This document shows, piece by piece, positions 20,229 to 37,470 of a stretch of DNA of 50,899 nt (its first letter is position 1; the number at the start of each line of letters is the position of its first letter). The notes below the pieces were generated by a model. The model made no database searches, had not been told where the DNA came from, and saw only the letters and a list, made by a program, of their open reading frames with translations. The translations under genes and the position numbers were made by a program. Origin of the DNA: an uncultured Bacteroidota bacterium (GTDB lineage Bacteria; Bacteroidota; Bacteroidia; Flavobacteriales; Flavobacteriaceae); NCBI GenBank assembly GCA_902557655.1, contig CACEAZ010000013.1, positions 1-50,899 on the forward strand, read 5' to 3'.

Positions 20229-20268
20229 AAAAAACCTACAGTTATAATATTAGATTGTGGGTTTTTTT
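20229..20268 (+). terminator. Intrinsic terminator after the SusE/F-like gene
   Basis: The arm AAAAAACCTAC (20229-20239) pairs with GTGGGTTTTTT (20257-20267), with one G-U pair and a 17-base loop, and ends in a run of T. It lies 21 bases after the SusE/F-like stop and just before the amylase start, so it should reduce read-through from the SusCDE operon into the amylase. Confidence 0.7.
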
Positions 20269-20283
20269 AATTTATATTACGCT

Positions 20284-23130
20284 ATGAAAAAAACCCTATT
20301 TGTCTTTTTATTTCTAATTACAAATTTTGTACTTGCTCAATTAACTACAAACCCTAGTCCTTTTGAAGTAAATCAATCGGTAACAATAACTATTGATGCA
20401 AATAGCAACCAAACAGATTGTAATGGTTTTAATAATCCTAATAAGGTTTATATGCATTCTGGTATAGGGAACGAGGCAGAACCTTGGGGTTTTTCTGTTG
20501 TAGGAAATTGGGGGCAAGATGATGGAGTAGGTGAAATGAATAATAATGGAGATGGTACATGGAGTATAACTATTGTTCCTTCCGATTACTACAATCTTAC
20601 AAATACCCAAATTTCAAATGCAACCAATATGGGATTAGTATTCAGAAATGAAAATGGTTCACAAGAATTTAAGGATTATGGTTGTTCAGATTTTTTTATT
20701 CAAGTGGGCTCATTCCAAGTTGATATGATAAATCCTGACAATTCAGGATTATTAATTGTAGACTCTGGGGATAGTGTGGAGATTAATGCTGTAAATACAG
20801 GTGGAAATGCCAATTATCAGCTTTATTCGAATGATAATTTAGTAGACACACAAAATAACACAAGTGAGTATGAAGGTTTTATTTTTGATAATATTTTAGA
20901 AAACAAGTATTGTAAATTGGTAGTAACGCAGGGTTCTTCACAAATAATAAAGTTTTTTTCAATTTTAGTTAATTTAACCGAAAATGAATCCATTCCTTCA
21001 AATGTTGAGGATGGAATAAATTATGTATCCGATAATTCTGTTGTGCTGGTTTTAGATGCCCCATACAAGGATTTTGTATATGTTTCTGGAAGTTTTAATG
21101 ATTGGGAGCCTGATGAGTCTTATCTCATGAAAAAAGATCCAAATTCAAGTAAATTTTGGTTGATAGTTGATAATTTAGATTCAGATATTGATTACACCTA
21201 TCAATATTGGGTTGTTGATATAGACCCTTTAGAAAATTCACCTGAGCTAGTCAAAACAGCTGATCCTTACTCTCATTTAGTTCTATCTCCATTTGATGAT
21301 CCTTGGATACCAGAAAATTCTTATCCAAACCTACCGATATATCCAGAGGGACAGGAAAGAGAAGTCACTCTATTTAATCTTTCCTCTAGTGATTATAATT
21401 GGCAGGTTGAAAATTTTCAAAAACCCAAAAAAGAAGATTTAATTATTTACGAAGTTTTAATTAGAGATTTTGATTCAGAAAGAACCTTTCAGAATCTAAT
21501 AGATAAAATAGATTATTTTAAAAATTTAAATATAAATGCAATTGAGTTGATGCCAGTAATGGAATTCGAAGGAAATGAAAGCTGGGGATATAATACTGCT
21601 TTTCATATGGCTGTGGACAAGTATTATGGTCCTGAAAATAAGTTAAAAGAATTTATCGATCTATGTCATCAGAATGAAATTGCCGTGATTTTAGATCTAG
21701 TTATGAATCATGTAATGGGTAGAAGTCCAATGAATAGAATGTGGATGCAAGATCCTGATAATGATGGTTGGGGACCAGCTAGTACAGAAAGCCCATACTT
21801 TAATTTAGAGGCAACTCATAGTTACAGTCTAGGGAATGATTTTAATCATCAAAGCACATACACCCAATATTACACGGAAAGAGTTATAAAAAGATGGATT
21901 GAGGATTTTAAAATTGATGGAATCAGATGGGATTTAACAAAAGGATTTACTCAAAACTGTAATGGAAATGATTTTGACTGTACTAACAGTTATCAGCAAG
22001 ATAGGGTAGATGTTTTGAAAAATTATGCCGATTACTCTTGGAGTATTGATCCGGATCATTATGTGATTTTTGAACATTTAGGTGGGAGTAGTGAAGAGCA
22101 ACAATGGGCAAATTACAGAGTAAACGAAGGCAAAGGAATTATGCTTTGGGGAAAAACTAGTAATTCTTATTATCAATTAGCGATGGGTTATGCAGCTGAT
22201 AGCAACATAAGCGGAATAGGTCATGAAAGCAGAGGTTTTTCTGAAAAAAGACTTGTAGGATACTTTGAGAGCCATGATGAAGAGAGGATCATGTATAAAG
22301 CATTACAATACGGAAATAGTTGGGACGGATATAATATTCAAGATTTAAACACTTCTTTATCAAGAATGTCTGCAATTGGAGCCATAAGTCTTACGATTCC
22401 TGGTCCTAAAATGATATGGCATTTTTCTGATTTGGGAATGGATAATTCTTTATTCACATGTTATGATGGTAGTGTTTATGAACCTGATTGTAAATTGGAT
22501 ACCAAACCTCAACCTCAATGGGTTGAAAATTGGTTATCAAACCAATATAGAAATCAAATTTATTTAGATTGGTCTAAGATAATTAGTCTAAAAATTAACG
22601 AAGATGTCTTTGAAGGAGATTATAGTATTAGCTCAGGGGGATTAACACCTATAATAAACATTTGGGATGATAATATTTCTTCCTCTGAACTAAAAAATAT
22701 TGTTATTGTTGCAAATCTAGATGTTGTTGAAAATTCGGTCATTCCTTCTTTTCCATATACTGGAACTTGGTATGATTTAATGGATGAAAATGCTGAGGAA
22801 TCAATTACAGTATCTTCAACAACAGATCCAATTTCATTAGGGCCAGGTGAGTTTAAGATTTATGGTAATCAAGCTTCAACCACATTGTCAACTGCGAATC
22901 TAATTAATGATGATTTACTGATTTATCCGAACCCAGTCTATGATTATTTTGTTGCAAACAAAGATGTCGAGCTTATTAAAATATTTGATGTTTCAGGAAA
23001 ACTTATAAGAACCTTTAAAAATATAACAGCAAACCAATCGATTAATATTGAATCTTTAGAAACAGGATATTATTTTCTAAAATTATTAGCTTCAGGTTAT
23101 ACTCATAACAAGAAGCTAATAAAAAAATAA
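20284..23130 (+). CDS. Large T9SS-secreted GH13 alpha-amylase
   Basis: A 948-residue secreted amylase; I start at ATG 20284 because a signal peptide (MKKTLFVFLFLITNFVLAQ) begins there, the longer frame having only a GTG inside the terminator stem. Residues about 20-142 and 145-230 look like accessory beta domains. About 245-345 is an E-set/CBM48-like domain (YVSGSFNDWEPDES). The GH13 barrel follows: LDLVMNHVMG, DGIRWDLTKG (nucleophile Asp 550), YVIFEHLGG (acid/base Glu 597) and ESHDEER (Asp 665). A T9SS type A sorting domain ends the protein (LLIYPNPVYDYF to NKKLIKK). It is predicted to be cell-surface or released and to start depolymerisation of starch or glycogen for the SusCDE system. It is convergent with the small peptide gene at 23135. 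Confidence 0.94.
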   Translation: MKKTLFVFLFLITNFVLAQLTTNPSPFEVNQSVTITIDANSNQTDCNGFNNPNKVYMHSGIGNEAEPWGFSVVGNWGQDDGVGEMNNNGDGTWSITIVPSDYYNLTNTQISNATNMGLVFRNENGSQEFKDYGCSDFFIQVGSFQVDMINPDNSGLLIVDSGDSVEINAVNTGGNANYQLYSNDNLVDTQNNTSEYEGFIFDNILENKYCKLVVTQGSSQIIKFFSILVNLTENESIPSNVEDGINYVSDNSVVLVLDAPYKDFVYVSGSFNDWEPDESYLMKKDPNSSKFWLIVDNLDSDIDYTYQYWVVDIDPLENSPELVKTADPYSHLVLSPFDDPWIPENSYPNLPIYPEGQEREVTLFNLSSSDYNWQVENFQKPKKEDLIIYEVLIRDFDSERTFQNLIDKIDYFKNLNINAIELMPVMEFEGNESWGYNTAFHMAVDKYYGPENKLKEFIDLCHQNEIAVILDLVMNHVMGRSPMNRMWMQDPDNDGWGPASTESPYFNLEATHSYSLGNDFNHQSTYTQYYTERVIKRWIEDFKIDGIRWDLTKGFTQNCNGNDFDCTNSYQQDRVDVLKNYADYSWSIDPDHYVIFEHLGGSSEEQQWANYRVNEGKGIMLWGKTSNSYYQLAMGYAADSNISGIGHESRGFSEKRLVGYFESHDEERIMYKALQYGNSWDGYNIQDLNTSLSRMSAIGAISLTIPGPKMIWHFSDLGMDNSLFTCYDGSVYEPDCKLDTKPQPQWVENWLSNQYRNQIYLDWSKIISLKINEDVFEGDYSISSGGLTPIINIWDDNISSSELKNIVIVANLDVVENSVIPSFPYTGTWYDLMDENAEESITVSSTTDPISLGPGEFKIYGNQASTTLSTANLINDDLLIYPNPVYDYFVANKDVELIKIFDVSGKLIRTFKNITANQSINIESLETGYYFLKLLASGYTHNKKLIKK

Positions 23131-23134
23131 CTTT

Positions 23135-23281
23135 TTAGTCCCCCCACCACGGATCTGGCGGAGAAGAAGAAGCCTGAGCCTTTTTGGGATTTAAAATTGC
23201 AAAGGTTCCAATAGCAGTTAATGCAGCATATTTCCCTATCTTTTTTATAGCATGTTTTCTAGTAATACCTGTCTTCTTCAT
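23135..23281 (-). CDS. 48-residue peptide with conserved hydrophobic leader (cassette 1)
   Basis: A short gene read from ATG at 23281, only 2 bases after the stop of the T9SS protein at 23284, so probably translationally coupled. The protein has a basic start (MKKTGITRKHAIKKIGK, residues 1-17), a hydrophobic core (YAALTAIGTFAIL), NPKKAQA ending at 37, and a tail SSSPPDPWWGD. The basic-hydrophobic-AQA layout resembles an export signal, Tat-like with Arg-Lys in place of Arg-Arg. A paralogue lies at 35156-35305. Over the 37-codon leader the two genes differ at 10 nucleotides, of which 8 are silent, which argues for real protein-level selection. The function is not recognised: a secreted or membrane-anchored peptide, or an accessory factor for the upstream T9SS protein, are both possible. 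Confidence 0.8.
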   Translation of the reverse strand: MKKTGITRKHAIKKIGKYAALTAIGTFAILNPKKAQASSSPPDPWWGD

Positions 23282-23583
23282 AACTATTGTATTATAAGTT
23301 TCTTAGTTAATCTCTCGTTTCCTGACTCTAATTCAATTACGTAAATACCACTTGCCATCCCAAGAGTTGAGAGGGTTTGTGTATTCATGCTGTTGCTTAA
23401 AGAAGTATTAAGCACTTTTCTTCCAAGAATGTTAAATAAACTAACATTAATATTATTTGATTGAGTAGCTAAACCTTCTATTGTAATATAATTTGCATTA
23501 GCTCCCTTGTATGCATTTAACATACTTGTTGATATATCTTCATTACTCATGGTATCGGCAGTCATATGGATAAAGAATCTCCC
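23135..23583 (-). repeat. Paralogous 3' segment, copy 1
   Basis: This segment covers the last 99 codons of the T9SS protein, the 2-base gap and the peptide gene. It is closely similar, in the same order and spacing, to 35156-35607. Upstream of the segment the two large genes are much more diverged. Confidence 0.85.
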
Positions 23584-25635
23584 CGCACCACTTAAATCAG
23601 TCGATGGAGTCAAGATATAATCAACAGACTTAAGATCTGTCATAGTACCTTCAAAAGCATCTTCTAAATAAATATTAAGATCTGCTGGGGTTGTTCTGTG
23701 AGAAATACTAATAGTCATTTCTTCGCCACTAAGAGCATTAATTCCAATAGGAATTACTTTATCCCACATTTCTGAGTAAGCTAAAGATTGATTTCCCAAA
23801 TCGATACCCTCATCATTATCTACAAGCCTGGTAGAGATATTTACTATATTATTTCCGTTTGGAAATCTTCTCACATCATAGCCAGAATCTAAACCATCAG
23901 TTACATTTTCAATAAAGTATATTTCAGTATTTTCATGGAATTCTAGTTGAGAAATTTTTAAAAATAATTCAGCCCTAAATTCATCCATAATATCTCCTAT
24001 CCAATCATTAGTGTCGGAGAGAGCAGAGTCAGATGCTTTAACCTTAAACCCTGTTCTAAAATCTAGTAGCCCTGTATCATCTCCTCCGTCAGCAGATGCA
24101 AAAGATTGTGCAGCAGAAACAAAAAATGCTGAACCGGGAGCTGCATATGTTGCTGCACTAGATTGGGAAATTGTGACATAACTGTCCCCGTCCCAATACC
24201 AAATTCCAACTTCGCCGTCTGTATGACCTAAAATATCATTTCCTGTTTTAGTTCCATTATACCAAATCAAATTTGATGATGCGGATGACTCAGTTTGTGC
24301 ATTTGAATTGATAGCTAAAAATTCAGGATATGGGTTAGATACTAAATTCCACTGAGTACCAGACCCTGAACCATTGTTATTTGTAATCAAAATTGTTTCA
24401 TTTCCAGATGTTAATGATCCAGTAAAAGCAACTGTTCCGGGATTAGCTTCAGGCATAGCCATAGAATAACCTTTACCAACAGTTGTAGAAATTGAGGAAC
24501 TGCTTGTACTAGTCCATGTATTATTTGAATTGTTATACTCCATCATGGCTACATTTCCAGAGCTAGTAGCTAATCCACTTGTTGAAACTGATGATCCAGT
24601 TACTGGTGATCCTACTAGGTCCCAACCTGGATCTGCATTTGTAGGGGAGGCAGAAGAAACATCATTAACCCATCTATTATATGTTAAATTTCCAGTCATT
24701 GATCCCTCCACGCTTAAAGTTGAATAAGCTGTTGCAGAAGACTCCATAGTTAATGTACCACTATTAATTAATTTACCTGAATTATACGCAGAAGTATTAC
24801 TTGATGAAGATACGGTTAAATCTTTTCCCGCTGCAACAGATAAGGAAGCATCTGAAGCAATTTCAACACTGGGAAAAGAAAGTGATGAGTTAAATGAAAC
24901 AGATCCTGTAGCTATGTGTACAGGTTTAGTTGAAGTTCCGGTTGGTGCAGTTGTTACATTAGCATCTGAGCTTTCATCCCAACTTATCCAATTAGTCCCA
25001 TTATGAATATAATTTGCTGGGGGTATCCCAACTCCAGCTAGAGCGGTGGAATAATCAGCAGAAGTAGGTTCACCTGATGAAAATAAAACTGTATTTTCCC
25101 AGTAAAGTGAAATGTTGTCAGTAGGTGATTGGGTAACTGCCCAATAATCAGTATCACCAGTAAATGTTCCAACCTTTCTAGAAATATTTGAATCTTTTGC
25201 TCTTACAGACCCATAATTAGAATAAGTATTTCCAGACGCTTTACCAAAAGTATCTGTCGTAGTTCCGTCTAATTCTAACCTGATTTGATCATTTCCGTTG
25301 AAGTACCAAGTTTCCTCAATATATCTTACATTTGGATTATTAGCCAGAACCTGTGTTTTAACACCTGCTGCAGTTCCTTCAGAGGGACCTAAAACTAAAA
25401 CTTCACCAGGGGCAAGAGAACCTGTATTAATAGTTTCTTTATTAGATTCACTTCCTCCATTTGCTTGATATTTAACTTTCAAATTTGTTTGTGTAAAATC
25501 AATTGTATTCCCAGTATTATTATATATTTCTATTAATTTAGGTTGACTTCCGTTTGCAGTTTCAACATATTGACTAATTATTTGCCCAAATGAAAATAAA
25601 GGAGTAATCAAAAATAGAAATATTGTTTTTTTCAT
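23284..25635 (-). CDS. T9SS-exported surface protein with lamin-tail-like N-terminus (cassette 1)
   Basis: A 783-residue secreted protein without a recognised enzyme motif. The signal peptide is residues 1-17 (ending FGQ). Residues about 18-130 resemble a lamin-tail (LTD) domain (ISQYVETANGSQPKLIEIYNNTG, GSLAPGEVLVLGPS). A Ser/Thr-rich beta-repeat region follows, including GWDLVGSPVTG, GKGYSMAMPE and WNLVSNPYPE. The final 99 residues (GRFFIHMTADTM to LTKKLIIQ) contain a T9SS type A sorting domain. That 99-residue end is 88% identical to the end of the 35308-37374 protein (12 differences counted). It is the first gene of a two-gene unit with the 48-residue peptide. It is probably an adhesin-like or structural surface protein; no function can be assigned. 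Confidence 0.88.
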   Translation of the reverse strand: MKKTIFLFLITPLFSFGQIISQYVETANGSQPKLIEIYNNTGNTIDFTQTNLKVKYQANGGSESNKETINTGSLAPGEVLVLGPSEGTAAGVKTQVLANNPNVRYIEETWYFNGNDQIRLELDGTTTDTFGKASGNTYSNYGSVRAKDSNISRKVGTFTGDTDYWAVTQSPTDNISLYWENTVLFSSGEPTSADYSTALAGVGIPPANYIHNGTNWISWDESSDANVTTAPTGTSTKPVHIATGSVSFNSSLSFPSVEIASDASLSVAAGKDLTVSSSSNTSAYNSGKLINSGTLTMESSATAYSTLSVEGSMTGNLTYNRWVNDVSSASPTNADPGWDLVGSPVTGSSVSTSGLATSSGNVAMMEYNNSNNTWTSTSSSSISTTVGKGYSMAMPEANPGTVAFTGSLTSGNETILITNNNGSGSGTQWNLVSNPYPEFLAINSNAQTESSASSNLIWYNGTKTGNDILGHTDGEVGIWYWDGDSYVTISQSSAATYAAPGSAFFVSAAQSFASADGGDDTGLLDFRTGFKVKASDSALSDTNDWIGDIMDEFRAELFLKISQLEFHENTEIYFIENVTDGLDSGYDVRRFPNGNNIVNISTRLVDNDEGIDLGNQSLAYSEMWDKVIPIGINALSGEEMTISISHRTTPADLNIYLEDAFEGTMTDLKSVDYILTPSTDLSGAGRFFIHMTADTMSNEDISTSMLNAYKGANANYITIEGLATQSNNINVSLFNILGRKVLNTSLSNSMNTQTLSTLGMASGIYVIELESGNERLTKKLIIQ

Positions 25636-34839: not shown

Positions 34840-34965
34840 ACATTAAATATTTCAAATATGCTATAAAAGTGAAAAGGTTTGAAAGAGAGCCAACCATAGC
34901 AATCAATCAAACCAATTCGTTTGTGTGATGCGAATATACATTAAAATAATTTAAAACTTACAAAA

Positions 34966-34995
34966 ATAAAAAAACCCACTGTAACACAGTGGGTT
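34966..34995 (-). terminator. Terminator after tRNA-Ser
   Basis: The perfect 10-bp arms AACCCACTGT (34973-34982) and ACAGTGGGTT (34986-34995) with a 3-base loop are followed on the minus strand by a run of T. It lies 14 bases downstream of the tRNA 3' end. Confidence 0.85.
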
Positions 34996-35008
34996 ATAAA
35001 GTTATGTG

Positions 35009-35093
35009 CGGAGGAAGAGGGATTCGAACCCCCGGAGGTGTGACCCTCAACAGTTTTCAAGACTGCCGCATTCGACCACTCTGCCATTCCTCC
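35009..35093 (-). tRNA. tRNA-Ser (anticodon UGA)
   Basis: An 85-base class II tRNA on the minus strand. The acceptor arms GGAGGAA and TTCCTCC pair, followed by discriminator G. The anticodon stem GCAGT/ACTGT encloses the loop CTTGAAA with anticodon TGA, reading UCA codons. A long variable arm (GAGG and CCTC paired) is typical of serine tRNAs, and the T-arm contains GGTTCGAATCC. The 3' CCA is not encoded. An exact Bacteroidota promoter and a strong terminator flank it. Confidence 0.96.
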
Positions 35094-35155: not shown

Positions 35156-35305
35156 TTAATTATCCCAACCAGGAGGTCCTTGCGGTGCGGATTGTGCCTG
35201 AGCCTTCTTAGGATTTAAAATAGCGAAGGTTCCAATAGCAGTTAATGCTGCATATTTCCCCATCTTCTTTATTGCCTGTTTTCTAGTAATACCTGTCTTC
35301 TTCAT
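35156..35305 (-). CDS. 49-residue peptide with conserved hydrophobic leader (cassette 2)
   Basis: The paralogue of the 23135-23281 gene, starting at ATG 35305, 2 bases after the stop of the T9SS protein at 35308. The leader (residues 1-37: basic start MKKTGITRKQAIKKMGK, hydrophobic YAALTAIGTFAIL, then NPKKAQA) differs from its paralogue only at residues 10 (Gln for His) and 15 (Met for Ile). The tail is QSAPQGPPGWDN, different in sequence but again Pro-rich with Trp and an acidic residue near the end. Tight coupling to a T9SS gene recurs. A conserved leader with a variable tail is the opposite of what an ordinary secretion signal shows. The function is unknown. Confidence 0.8.
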   Translation of the reverse strand: MKKTGITRKQAIKKMGKYAALTAIGTFAILNPKKAQAQSAPQGPPGWDN

Positions 35306-35607
35306 AATTATTGAATTATAAGTTTCTTAGTTAATCTATCATTTCCTGATTCCAATTCAATCACATAAATACCACTTGCCATTCCAACCGTTGATATGGT
35401 TTGTGTATTCATGTTATTACTTAGAGAAGTATCAAGTACTTTTCTTCCAAGAATGTTAAATAAACTAACGTTAATATTATTTGATTGAGTAGCTAAACCT
35501 TCTAATGTAATGTAGTTGGCATTAACTTCTTTAAATGCATTTAGCATGCTTGTTGAAACATCTTCATTACCCATCGTATCAGCACTCATGTGGATAAAGA
35601 ATCTTCC
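35156..35607 (-). repeat. Paralogous 3' segment, copy 2
   Basis: The second copy of the segment described at 23135-23583: the last 99 codons of the T9SS gene (87 of 99 residues identical), a 2-base gap and the peptide gene, in the same order. Confidence 0.85.
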
Positions 35608-37374
35608 GACTTCACTTAAATTACTCGTAGGAGTCAAAACAAAATCTTCTTCATAAAGATTTGTGAAAGTTCCTTCCTCTACATCTTCCAAATACATATT
35701 AGGATTTGGAATTGTAGCTGTATGAAGATTAATTCTAAATTCTTGACCTGCGGCTTGATTAATGACAAGTGGGATAACGGCATTTTGCATAGCGTCAATA
35801 CCCATAGCATTAATGGCCATTCCATGACCCTGGTCATCTTCGGTTAATCTAGTTGTGATTGATGCATTTTCATAATAATGACCCGCATCCCATCCACGGT
35901 CAAGCCCCATGCTAAGACCTTCATCAAAGAATAATTTAGTTTTTCCTATACCGATATCATCATTGTAAACCCTTAGCTCAACTTCAGCGTTTTCCATTAC
36001 ATCACCAGATATGAAATCATCGGATCCACTTACAGTTTGCATTTCCTCCTTGAAGATAATGTTAGCGGCAGTAGTACTTCTTGCGGCTACCATAAATGCT
36101 TGCCCTGGTGCAATTTTACCTGTTGATGCATTGTTATAAATATCAAAAAGTTCGGTTAACCCATCATTGTCAGTATTTGCATCATATCCATAGACCCCAA
36201 CAAATGTGTCGTCAATAACATCGTCGTTAACTTCAAGAAAGGTATCAGTTGTTGTATTGGGACCAATAGTTATATATGAAGGGTAGGGATTAGAAATTAA
36301 ATTCCATCGACGACCTGATGCATCTGTAAAACTCTCAACAGAAATTGTTTCGGTTGCATCCGTATCTACAGTACCAGTAAATGCTAAAGTTGCACCACTA
36401 TCGGTTGCCATCTGATAGCCTTTTCCAGGTATGAATTGAGTACTTCCAACACCTGAATCTGTAAAGTTAGTCCAAGTGTTATTACTACTATCATAAGTTC
36501 CAATTGCGTATTCCCCAGTTGCACCGGCTCCACTGCCGTTTCCAGTTGCTAAAGGAGAACTTCCAGAAGTGTTATCTGATACAAAAGAACTGATCTGTAA
36601 TCCATTAACGGGCGAACCAATTAAATCCCAACCAGAACCATTGCTAAGTGAATTAACATATCTATTGTAGGTAATGTTTCCTGATGAAGTTCCTTGAACA
36701 ATCAAAGAAGAAAATTCATTGCTGTCTGAGTTTAGGGTAACAATTCCATTATTTGTTAAATTTCCTGAAATGGTTAAAGATCCTGTCTTGGCTATGGTTA
36801 AGGTTTGTCCTGAATCCACCGTAACGTTATCATAACTTACATCCGAGCTAATTGTTTGATCAGAACTAACCGCTAGATCATTTGAATAAGCTGTCCAAGT
36901 TATATCATCAATAATTACTTGTTTGGATGTAATATTTCTAATCTCAATAATTATATTACCAGAAATATTAATTCCACTTACAGAAAAAATGTGTTCATTA
37001 AAATCATCAAAAGGGGTAGAAGTACCTTTTGACACACCATTTATAAACAATTCTACTTCTCTATTACCACCTCCTGTGAAACCTTTGTAAAGTTTGACGC
37101 TAAAATTTGCTATACCTCCAGAAATAGTGCTGGAAGTTATTTTACTATCGTTAGAAGATCTTCTTAACATCAAGGCAGGCAAATTTATTCCTGAATTGTT
37201 TAGGTCACCATTTCCATTTCTGGAATGAACATATGTCCAAGTTATACTTGAGTTCCCTACAAAACTCCCGTCAAGATAGGAAGCTGTTGCATTAGAATTT
37301 GTAAAATCTTCAGTTCCTTGAGAAAAGATAGAATAAGTAATAAAAAAACATAATAGGAAAGTAATTTTTTTCAT
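35308..37374 (-). CDS. T9SS-exported surface protein with jelly-roll-like N-terminus (cassette 2)
   Basis: A 688-residue secreted protein; I take ATG 37374 as the start because the signal peptide (MKKITFLLCFFITYSIFSQ) begins there, ten codons inside the longest frame. The N-terminal part, about residues 20-160, is a beta-sandwich-like domain (GTEDFTNSNATASYLDGSF, VIIDDITWTAYS), different from the lamin-tail-like start of its paralogue. The middle shares the layout of the 23284 protein (GWDLIGSPVNG, GKGYQMATDS, RWNLISNPYPS). The last 99 residues are 88% identical to it and carry the T9SS sorting domain ending KKLIIQ. No catalytic motif is visible. It diverges from the esterase at 37471. Confidence 0.88.
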   Translation of the reverse strand: MKKITFLLCFFITYSIFSQGTEDFTNSNATASYLDGSFVGNSSITWTYVHSRNGNGDLNNSGINLPALMLRRSSNDSKITSSTISGGIANFSVKLYKGFTGGGNREVELFINGVSKGTSTPFDDFNEHIFSVSGINISGNIIIEIRNITSKQVIIDDITWTAYSNDLAVSSDQTISSDVSYDNVTVDSGQTLTIAKTGSLTISGNLTNNGIVTLNSDSNEFSSLIVQGTSSGNITYNRYVNSLSNGSGWDLIGSPVNGLQISSFVSDNTSGSSPLATGNGSGAGATGEYAIGTYDSSNNTWTNFTDSGVGSTQFIPGKGYQMATDSGATLAFTGTVDTDATETISVESFTDASGRRWNLISNPYPSYITIGPNTTTDTFLEVNDDVIDDTFVGVYGYDANTDNDGLTELFDIYNNASTGKIAPGQAFMVAARSTTAANIIFKEEMQTVSGSDDFISGDVMENAEVELRVYNDDIGIGKTKLFFDEGLSMGLDRGWDAGHYYENASITTRLTEDDQGHGMAINAMGIDAMQNAVIPLVINQAAGQEFRINLHTATIPNPNMYLEDVEEGTFTNLYEEDFVLTPTSNLSEVGRFFIHMSADTMGNEDVSTSMLNAFKEVNANYITLEGLATQSNNINVSLFNILGRKVLDTSLSNNMNTQTISTVGMASGIYVIELESGNDRLTKKLIIQ

Positions 37375-37392
37375 TTGTAGTGGATTAGATCG

Positions 37393-37400
37393 CAAATTTA
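37393..37400 (-). promoter_or_regulatory. Candidate -7 element for T9SS cassette 2
   Basis: TAAATTTG on the minus strand, 18 bases before the ATG at 37374, matches TAnnTTTG. The upstream -33 TTG is not evident. This supports 37374 over the longer start, because the longer start at 37404 lies upstream of this element. Confidence 0.35.
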
Positions 37401-37470
37401 CCAATTTTTGATTTTAAAATTTTAAATTTAGATAGATTATATAAACAAGATTTTAACAATTTGTTATAAG

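Follow-up and report, generated by a model that had tools for sequence, protein, structure and literature searches.

The closest described relative of the system reported here is the group of linear polyphosphorylated peptides (LPP) of Bacillota (Popov et al. 2026, PMC13381572), in which, according to the accessible part of that paper, the kinase LppK phosphorylates Ser3 of the core and not Thr or Tyr at that place. HprK-like kinases also act on a Ser of the precursors of phosphorylated lasso peptides, and the accessible part of that work names a His-Lys-Asp-Asp set as catalytic (PMC9266682). A third point of comparison is the NCBIfam 'HPr-rel-A' cassette, made up of HprK_rel_A, a PqqD chaperone and a nucleotidyltransferase. 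Literature searches, whose coverage left subscription journals mostly outside, returned the LPP and lasso-kinase work, and none of the matches listed linked such peptides to type IX secretion (T9SS); with the same coverage, no paper was found under 'HPr-rel-A' or 'HprK-related kinase A'.

The window, the whole stretch of 50,899 nucleotides analysed, comes from a member of the Flavobacteriaceae and contains two tiny precursor-like genes. Both were called in an earlier sequence-only reading, which did not give their strand; both lie on the minus strand. Copy 1 (23135..23281, 48 aa, ATG start at 23281), for which homologues were found, begins with a conserved, signal-like leader of 37 aa (23171..23281) ending in AQA and closes with the tail SSSPPDPWWGD. 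Copy 2 (35156..35305, 49 aa, ATG start at 35305) has a conserved 37-aa leader (35195..35305) and the tail QSAPQGPPGWDN. Both tails are as first read, and the comparison of the leaders gave the same values when recomputed: replacements at residues 10 (H/Q) and 15 (I/M) only, and 10 nucleotide differences of which 8 are silent. The candidate kinase target is Ser39, at AxA-x-S, with its codon at 23165..23167 in copy 1 and at 35189..35191 in copy 2 (minus strand); the position is conserved and its phosphorylation is predicted. The plus strand has no open frame at either site. Pfam and NCBIfam profiles do not match either peptide, and the absence of a PF18962 or TIGR04183 (C-terminal sorting domain, CTD) match means that, by this test, the tiny protein is not itself T9SS cargo. 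A promoter scan was uninformative (11 found vs 13.2 in shuffles).

Two neighbouring features were noted. A 48-aa ORF just downstream of copy 2 (34941-35087) was rejected as a further paralogue; it overlaps a tRNA-Ser (35008-35093, minus strand) and is unlikely to be a gene. On the plus strand, a T9SS-type gene (957 aa; region 20257-23135) ends at 23130, only 4 nt from the convergent stop of copy 1.

The genome holds four copies of the tiny gene, two in the window and the others on contigs C16 and C34, and each starts 2 nt past the stop of a T9SS gene. Together with homologues in 32 of 299 sampled Flavobacteriaceae genomes, from 24 of 236 genera, this is more than chance. The gene was found in 8 of 296 genomes of an order-wide sample and in 6 of 395 of a phylum-wide sample at E 0.01, one of these six being weak and containing a stop. 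Scanning genome contigs yielded 474 relatives; the best 80, which make up 79 loci and are biased to close relatives, belong to Winogradskyella, Psychroserpens, Polaribacter, Lutibacter, Gelidibacter and uncultured marine lineages. Six IMG/VR contigs (L117-L122) also encode the leader, with different tails that are often Gly- and His-rich. Four of them, read gene by gene, carry phage-like genes by eye (e.g., a terminase-like gene in L122) and have no T9SS gene beside the leader gene; the annotated phage records searched gave no match. Orphan tiny genes behind a FolD-like gene, with no T9SS gene upstream by eye, were observed in L050 and L065 (about 10000 each; also in L008 and L010), and these loci look orthologous.

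Both upstream neighbours in the window are T9SS type A proteins on the minus strand that score above the TIGR04183 and PF18962 cut-offs. The neighbour of copy 1 (23284..25635, 783 aa) has an LTD domain near its N-terminus; that of copy 2 (35308..37404) is 698 aa long from TTG at 37404, with ATG at 37374 the likelier start. The CTD of these neighbours represents a subclass linked to the tiny gene, without the PNP motif that stands near the start of most other CTDs compared and placed after a GRF segment that closes a long conserved region; no recurrent Pfam model covers this region. A gene of this subclass is the immediate upstream neighbour, in the same orientation, at 68 of the 71 loci with room (median distance, 21 nt; exceptions, L050, L065 and L069), a count that leans towards it because the CTD profile was built from tiny-gene neighbours. 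PF18962 matches 34 of 36 full-length neighbours scanned. The coupling to a T9SS surface protein claimed in the sequence-only reading thus holds, and for one CTD subclass. Nor did any of the outcomes named there as speaking against it occur: relatives exist well beyond this genome, nearly all of those with room adjoin T9SS-domain genes, and disrupted frames are few, with stop codons in 4 of 42 matches of the 299-genome search.

Of 30 PF18962 matches in the genome of the window, five reach at least 132 bits with the subclass profile, and four of these five carry the tiny gene; directly behind the fifth (L163, contig C32), which has none, another secreted-type ORF begins. Over the 299 genomes, taking a 71-bit line chosen after the scores were seen, the subclass and the tiny gene occur together in 25, the tiny gene only in 7, the subclass only in 5 and neither in 262. 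The search scored the best 15 first-look candidates per genome, so copy numbers may be low; the large genomes G157 and G045 have several high-scoring subclass proteins and one tiny gene. The coupling is genomic, and the T9SS accessory factor proposed in the sequence-only reading would be one possible meaning of it.

An HprK-like kinase follows the tiny gene more closely. In the same 299 genomes both are found in 28, the tiny gene only in 4, the kinase only in 1 and neither in 266 (28/4/1 vs 25/7/5 for the CTD subclass), and the T9SS neighbour alone was therefore rejected as an explanation. Because these genomes are mutually related, a Fisher p-value for the co-occurrence is not a fair probability. 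The kinase is thus present in 29 genomes, and the sole kinase-only genome, G048, is a fragmented assembly; the tiny-only genomes are G136 (84% complete), G275 (82% complete), G283 and G295. In the phylum sample, a full-length-type kinase (above 150 bits) occurs in 5 of 390 genomes, and clear tiny genes occur in these same five; a further 104 matches reach at most 51 bits. These whole-genome searches, like that for the CTD subclass, are independent of position, and they scored the best 6 (family) or 5 (phylum) first-look candidates per genome, so copy numbers may be low.

The two genes are usually close together, with the tiny gene standing right before the kinase gene. In 22 of the 28 shared genomes the matched stretches are at most 211 nt apart and in one they are 1,065 nt apart. 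The remaining five have them at greater distances, split between contigs or, in the genome of the window, oppositely oriented on one contig. At the level of loci, the kinase lies within 5 kb of the tiny gene in 45 of 72 with room, none being found in that range in 27, and these counts lean towards the kinase since its profile was built from tiny-gene neighbours. The tiny gene is immediately followed by the opening of the kinase frame, on its own strand, in 34 loci, 32 of which also have a nucleotidyltransferase on that strand. Many kinase frames (L067, L071, L089 and others) open right after the tiny gene and have no early ATG, which suggests TTG or another non-ATG start codon. No kinase stands beside either window copy; the last 142 residues of the one in this genome are found at the edge of contig C34, outside the window. 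Within 1.5 kb, no clear leader peptide was seen at ten low-scoring Bacteroidota kinase-like loci, nor beside L257 and L258, two full kinases from genomes that carry their tiny genes at other places.

The kinase matches TIGR04352 (HprK_rel_A) below the cut-off. An alignment of 18 rows keeps H195, K216 of the Walker A motif, D233 and D234 throughout, a set compared with that of the lasso-peptide kinases by description rather than by alignment. The model of a homologue (L047, pLDDT 91.7) matches PEP carboxykinase and HprK/P structures in the PDB. Modelled alone, the N-terminal domain forms three strands followed by three helices (pLDDT 86.8), and the nine PDB chains that match it best all come from RiPP proteins: sactisynthase (5why/5wgg), the lasso RRE TbiB1 with leader (5v1u, 5v1v) and TigE (8vpo). 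Their E-values are weak, between 0.04 and 0.93, and none reaches 0.001. The sactisynthase and TigE also carry RREs. The domain therefore models as an RRE fold, one that may bind the leader. A leader recognized by a dedicated machinery, as the sequence-only reading had it, is well supported by the near one-to-one co-occurrence with the kinase and by this predicted leader-binding domain.

The presumed target of the kinase is strongly conserved. Ser occupies AxA-x-S in 119 of 123 distinct tiny ORFs, and the tails follow a common Pro-rich pattern, in many cases PPDPGG plus an aromatic residue close to the end; both the Ser and the Pro of the tail are conserved across genera. The tail SSPPDPGGNPFD recurs in 7 of the 8 loci titled Psychroserpens and in 7 of the 16 with a Winogradskyella title. 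A freely variable core was rejected, and the 'variable Pro/Trp tail' of the sequence-only reading was too strong a description: the two tails given there do differ, but within a shared pattern. The four exceptions are of several kinds. G283 has an intact frame in which Tyr replaces Ser, the only intact-frame gene with Tyr, and no kinase was found in it either by genome search or within 17 kb around the tiny gene. G295 has a disrupted tiny frame and no detected kinase, G151 a truncated tiny frame that a kinase nevertheless adjoins, and L048 a degenerate stretch. The conserved Ser as kinase target would fit the specificity of LppK, and the coincidence of Tyr with the lack of a kinase is a single case.

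The leader resembles an export signal. G, K, Y, T, A, G and T are invariant inside its hydrophobic stretch in an alignment of 18 rows. Leaders with the motif have R-K in 112 of 119 cases and R-R in 1, which makes use of the Tat pathway doubtful; PF10518 does not match either window peptide, and the family was not filed as a Tat substrate. Export is plausible nonetheless, given the signal-like leader ending in AxA, a TatC in the genome (210.9 bits) and the twin-arginine leaders beside related proteobacterial kinases described below.

Clustering of the ORFs around the tiny gene in the 79 loci recovered, besides the HprK-like protein, a recurrent PF14907 nucleotidyltransferase (above the cut-off in 4 of 4 neighbours scanned) and a PF13505-type barrel; of the loci with room, 35 of 73 have the former within 5 kb and 30 of 71 the latter. 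The nucleotidyltransferase of the genome studied lies on contig C15 among ORFs resembling capsule-export genes (named by eye). Among the 25 most frequent neighbour families, inspected by eye, no receptor or regulator was recognized (from the first residues), and no SpI-like leader peptidase, MsbA-like exporter, lasso macrolactam cyclase or B2 peptidase was noticed. In L006 (G000:C34:1-4754), the kinase fragment is separated from the tiny gene by one sugar-nucleotidyltransferase-like, two rhodanese-like and one thioredoxin-like ORF (by eye), and rhodanese-like ORFs recur in related loci.

Related kinases are also found on proteobacterial plasmids. A tblastn search with the kinase and two relatives returned 21 distinct plasmid records, of which 8, chosen by hand, were examined. 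A twin-arginine-leader protein lies near the kinase in seven of them, from Methylobacterium, Sphingomonas, Vibrio, two Rhizobium, Ensifer and Sinorhizobium; none was seen near the kinase of the Methylosinus plasmid. The two Rhizobium loci are near-copies and those of Ensifer and Sinorhizobium are close, so the seven matches amount to about five lineages, and the leaders were picked, without a background rate, by a simple pattern and by eye (in Vibrio by eye alone). Twin-arginine-leader peptides with Gly-rich tails beside HprK-like kinases lie at 4118-4402 of L249, 4362-4616 of L253 and 7785-8078 of L255; the first is missing from the listed annotation, and the records of the other two list no genes. 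The Rhizobium leaders read GKFAALT where tiny-gene leaders have GKYAALT. Scores with the tiny-gene profile are 16.1 and 15.1 bits for Rhizobium, 10.3 for Methylobacterium, 9.2 for Ensifer, 3.9 for Sinorhizobium and below 0 for Sphingomonas, and therefore suggest homology of the leader for some plasmid peptides, not all. Three plasmid nucleotidyltransferases were scanned and all match PF14907.

We consider it likely that the tiny gene codes for a RiPP-like precursor, which the RRE-kinase would bind and phosphorylate on Ser before it is modified further, exported and cleaved. Gene pairing and the structural model place the tiny peptide with an RRE-fold HprK-like kinase and often with a PF14907 nucleotidyltransferase; in the genome studied, one kinase gene (the contig-end fragment) and one nucleotidyltransferase, both outside the window, would serve four precursors in trans. 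From this pairing, the predicted fold and the conserved residues we infer the chemical and transport steps. The RRE would bind the conserved leader, with the GKYAALTA core as the likely recognition stretch. The kinase would then phosphorylate the Ser two residues past AxA, and the nucleotidyltransferase may add a group to the phosphate. The leader, seen as a Tat-derived signal sequence, would carry the peptide over the inner membrane, where cleavage by signal peptidase I after AxA would yield a short, Pro-rich modified peptide, of 11 or 12 residues for the window copies. Most tentatively, this peptide and the T9SS protein of the preceding gene might work together at the surface or in the periplasm.

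The product might instead be a membrane-anchored microprotein whose leader remains uncut and which helps the adjacent T9SS protein as a chaperone or docking factor, the kinase regulating it rather than making a natural product. Such a protein would account for a hydrophobic stretch conserved beyond the need of a plain signal and for the T9SS gene directly upstream in nearly all loci, but the AxA end with Ser just after it resembles a cleavage site with a modified residue behind it, the tiny gene is more tightly associated with the kinase than with the CTD subclass, and L050, L065 and L069 do without the upstream gene. We regard this reading as rather unlikely. A secreted signalling peptide, its modified tail released and sensed by neighbouring cells, perhaps via the nearby outer-membrane barrel, appears quite improbable: it would leave the T9SS coupling unexplained and no receptor or regulator was recognized among the 25 neighbour families, even though the short product is conserved within genera, as in the Psychroserpens and Winogradskyella loci, and a barrel gene is often near.

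Least probable is a short, passive ORF that bears a generic signal peptide (Tat or Sec) and hitch-hikes with duplicated T9SS genes. Block duplication is what the four copies behind near-identical CTD ends would look like in this one genome; the dominance of silent changes, the tail Ser and Pro kept across genera and the genome-wide partnership with one kinase all argue against it. If the modified precursor peptide is the true reading, phosphopeptide-type RiPPs extend to marine Bacteroidota, peptides with Tat-type leaders are indicated as the substrates of a class of HprK-related kinases, and a modified peptide is tied to type IX secretion. Since precursor, kinase and candidate Ser are all named, the proposal is directly testable.

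In Porphyromonas, the T9SS sortase attaches cargo to an amine linked to lipopolysaccharide. By extension of this chemistry, the modified peptide could serve as a dedicated linker or acceptor for the neighbouring CTD-subclass proteins: its free N-terminus and modified Ser would be joined to them after export, at T9SS sorting, and a peptide would take the place of lipopolysaccharide as the anchor. On a wider view, RRE/HprK kinases and the Tat-leader peptides they modify could form a cross-phylum class tied to the export of surface proteins and surface polysaccharides. This whole reading is speculative, and we think it improbable.

As far as the accessible part of the LPP paper (PMC13381572) allows comparison, the two systems share a precursor with a conserved N-terminal leader and a variable C-terminus, an HprK-like kinase (here with TIGR04352 matches, invariant H/K/D/D and the HprK/P fold match), an NTP transferase in the cluster (here PF14907, with the copy of this genome on another contig), and a Ser near the core start; a lasso cyclase, which LPP lacks, was not noticed here among the 25 most frequent neighbour families read by eye. 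The capsule-locus setting of LPP is paralleled here only around the nucleotidyltransferase of this genome, among genes named by eye. The RRE of LPP is a discrete protein, whereas here the kinase itself has the RRE-like fold at its N-terminus; the LPP leader motif YxxPxVLxHQxIxFETxxS was seen neither in the alignment nor in any of the 123 variants, whose leader is signal-like, and the [Y/W]xxP motif described for LPP and lasso leaders is lacking too. The tiny genes differ further in coming from Flavobacteriaceae rather than Bacillota, in the T9SS gene upstream and in their much shorter tails. The SpI-like leader peptidase and MsbA-like exporter that belong to LPP were not noticed among those 25 families. 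For want of a discrete RRE and of the LPP leader motif, they were not filed as LPP.

The phosphorylated lasso peptides paeninodin and pseudomycoidin, in the accessible part of PMC9266682, likewise involve an HprK-like kinase with His-Lys-Asp-Asp, a precursor Ser and a nucleotidyltransferase-like partner (PsmN); their target Ser is C-terminal, unlike that of the tiny gene, and the macrolactam cyclase and B2 peptidase typical of lasso peptides were not noticed among the same 25 families. The tiny genes were not filed as lasso peptides. The HPr-rel-A cassette has the same kinase superfamily and PF14907 partner, and a twin-arginine-leader protein adjoins it in the Sphingomonas and Vibrio loci. It differs in its separate PqqD protein (in Sphingomonas), in substrate proteins of 161 and 270 aa, and in its kinases, since those of the tiny genes score under the TIGR04352 cut-off. 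In DUF2282-type RiPP precursors, as the accessible part of PMC12710340 describes them, an export signal, there a Sec signal peptide, is the conserved N-terminal part, as the signal-like leader is here, and the modifying enzymes differ. With RiPPs in general the tiny-gene family shares a short ribosomal precursor paired with a candidate modifying enzyme and, by predicted fold with weak PDB matches, an RRE-like domain.
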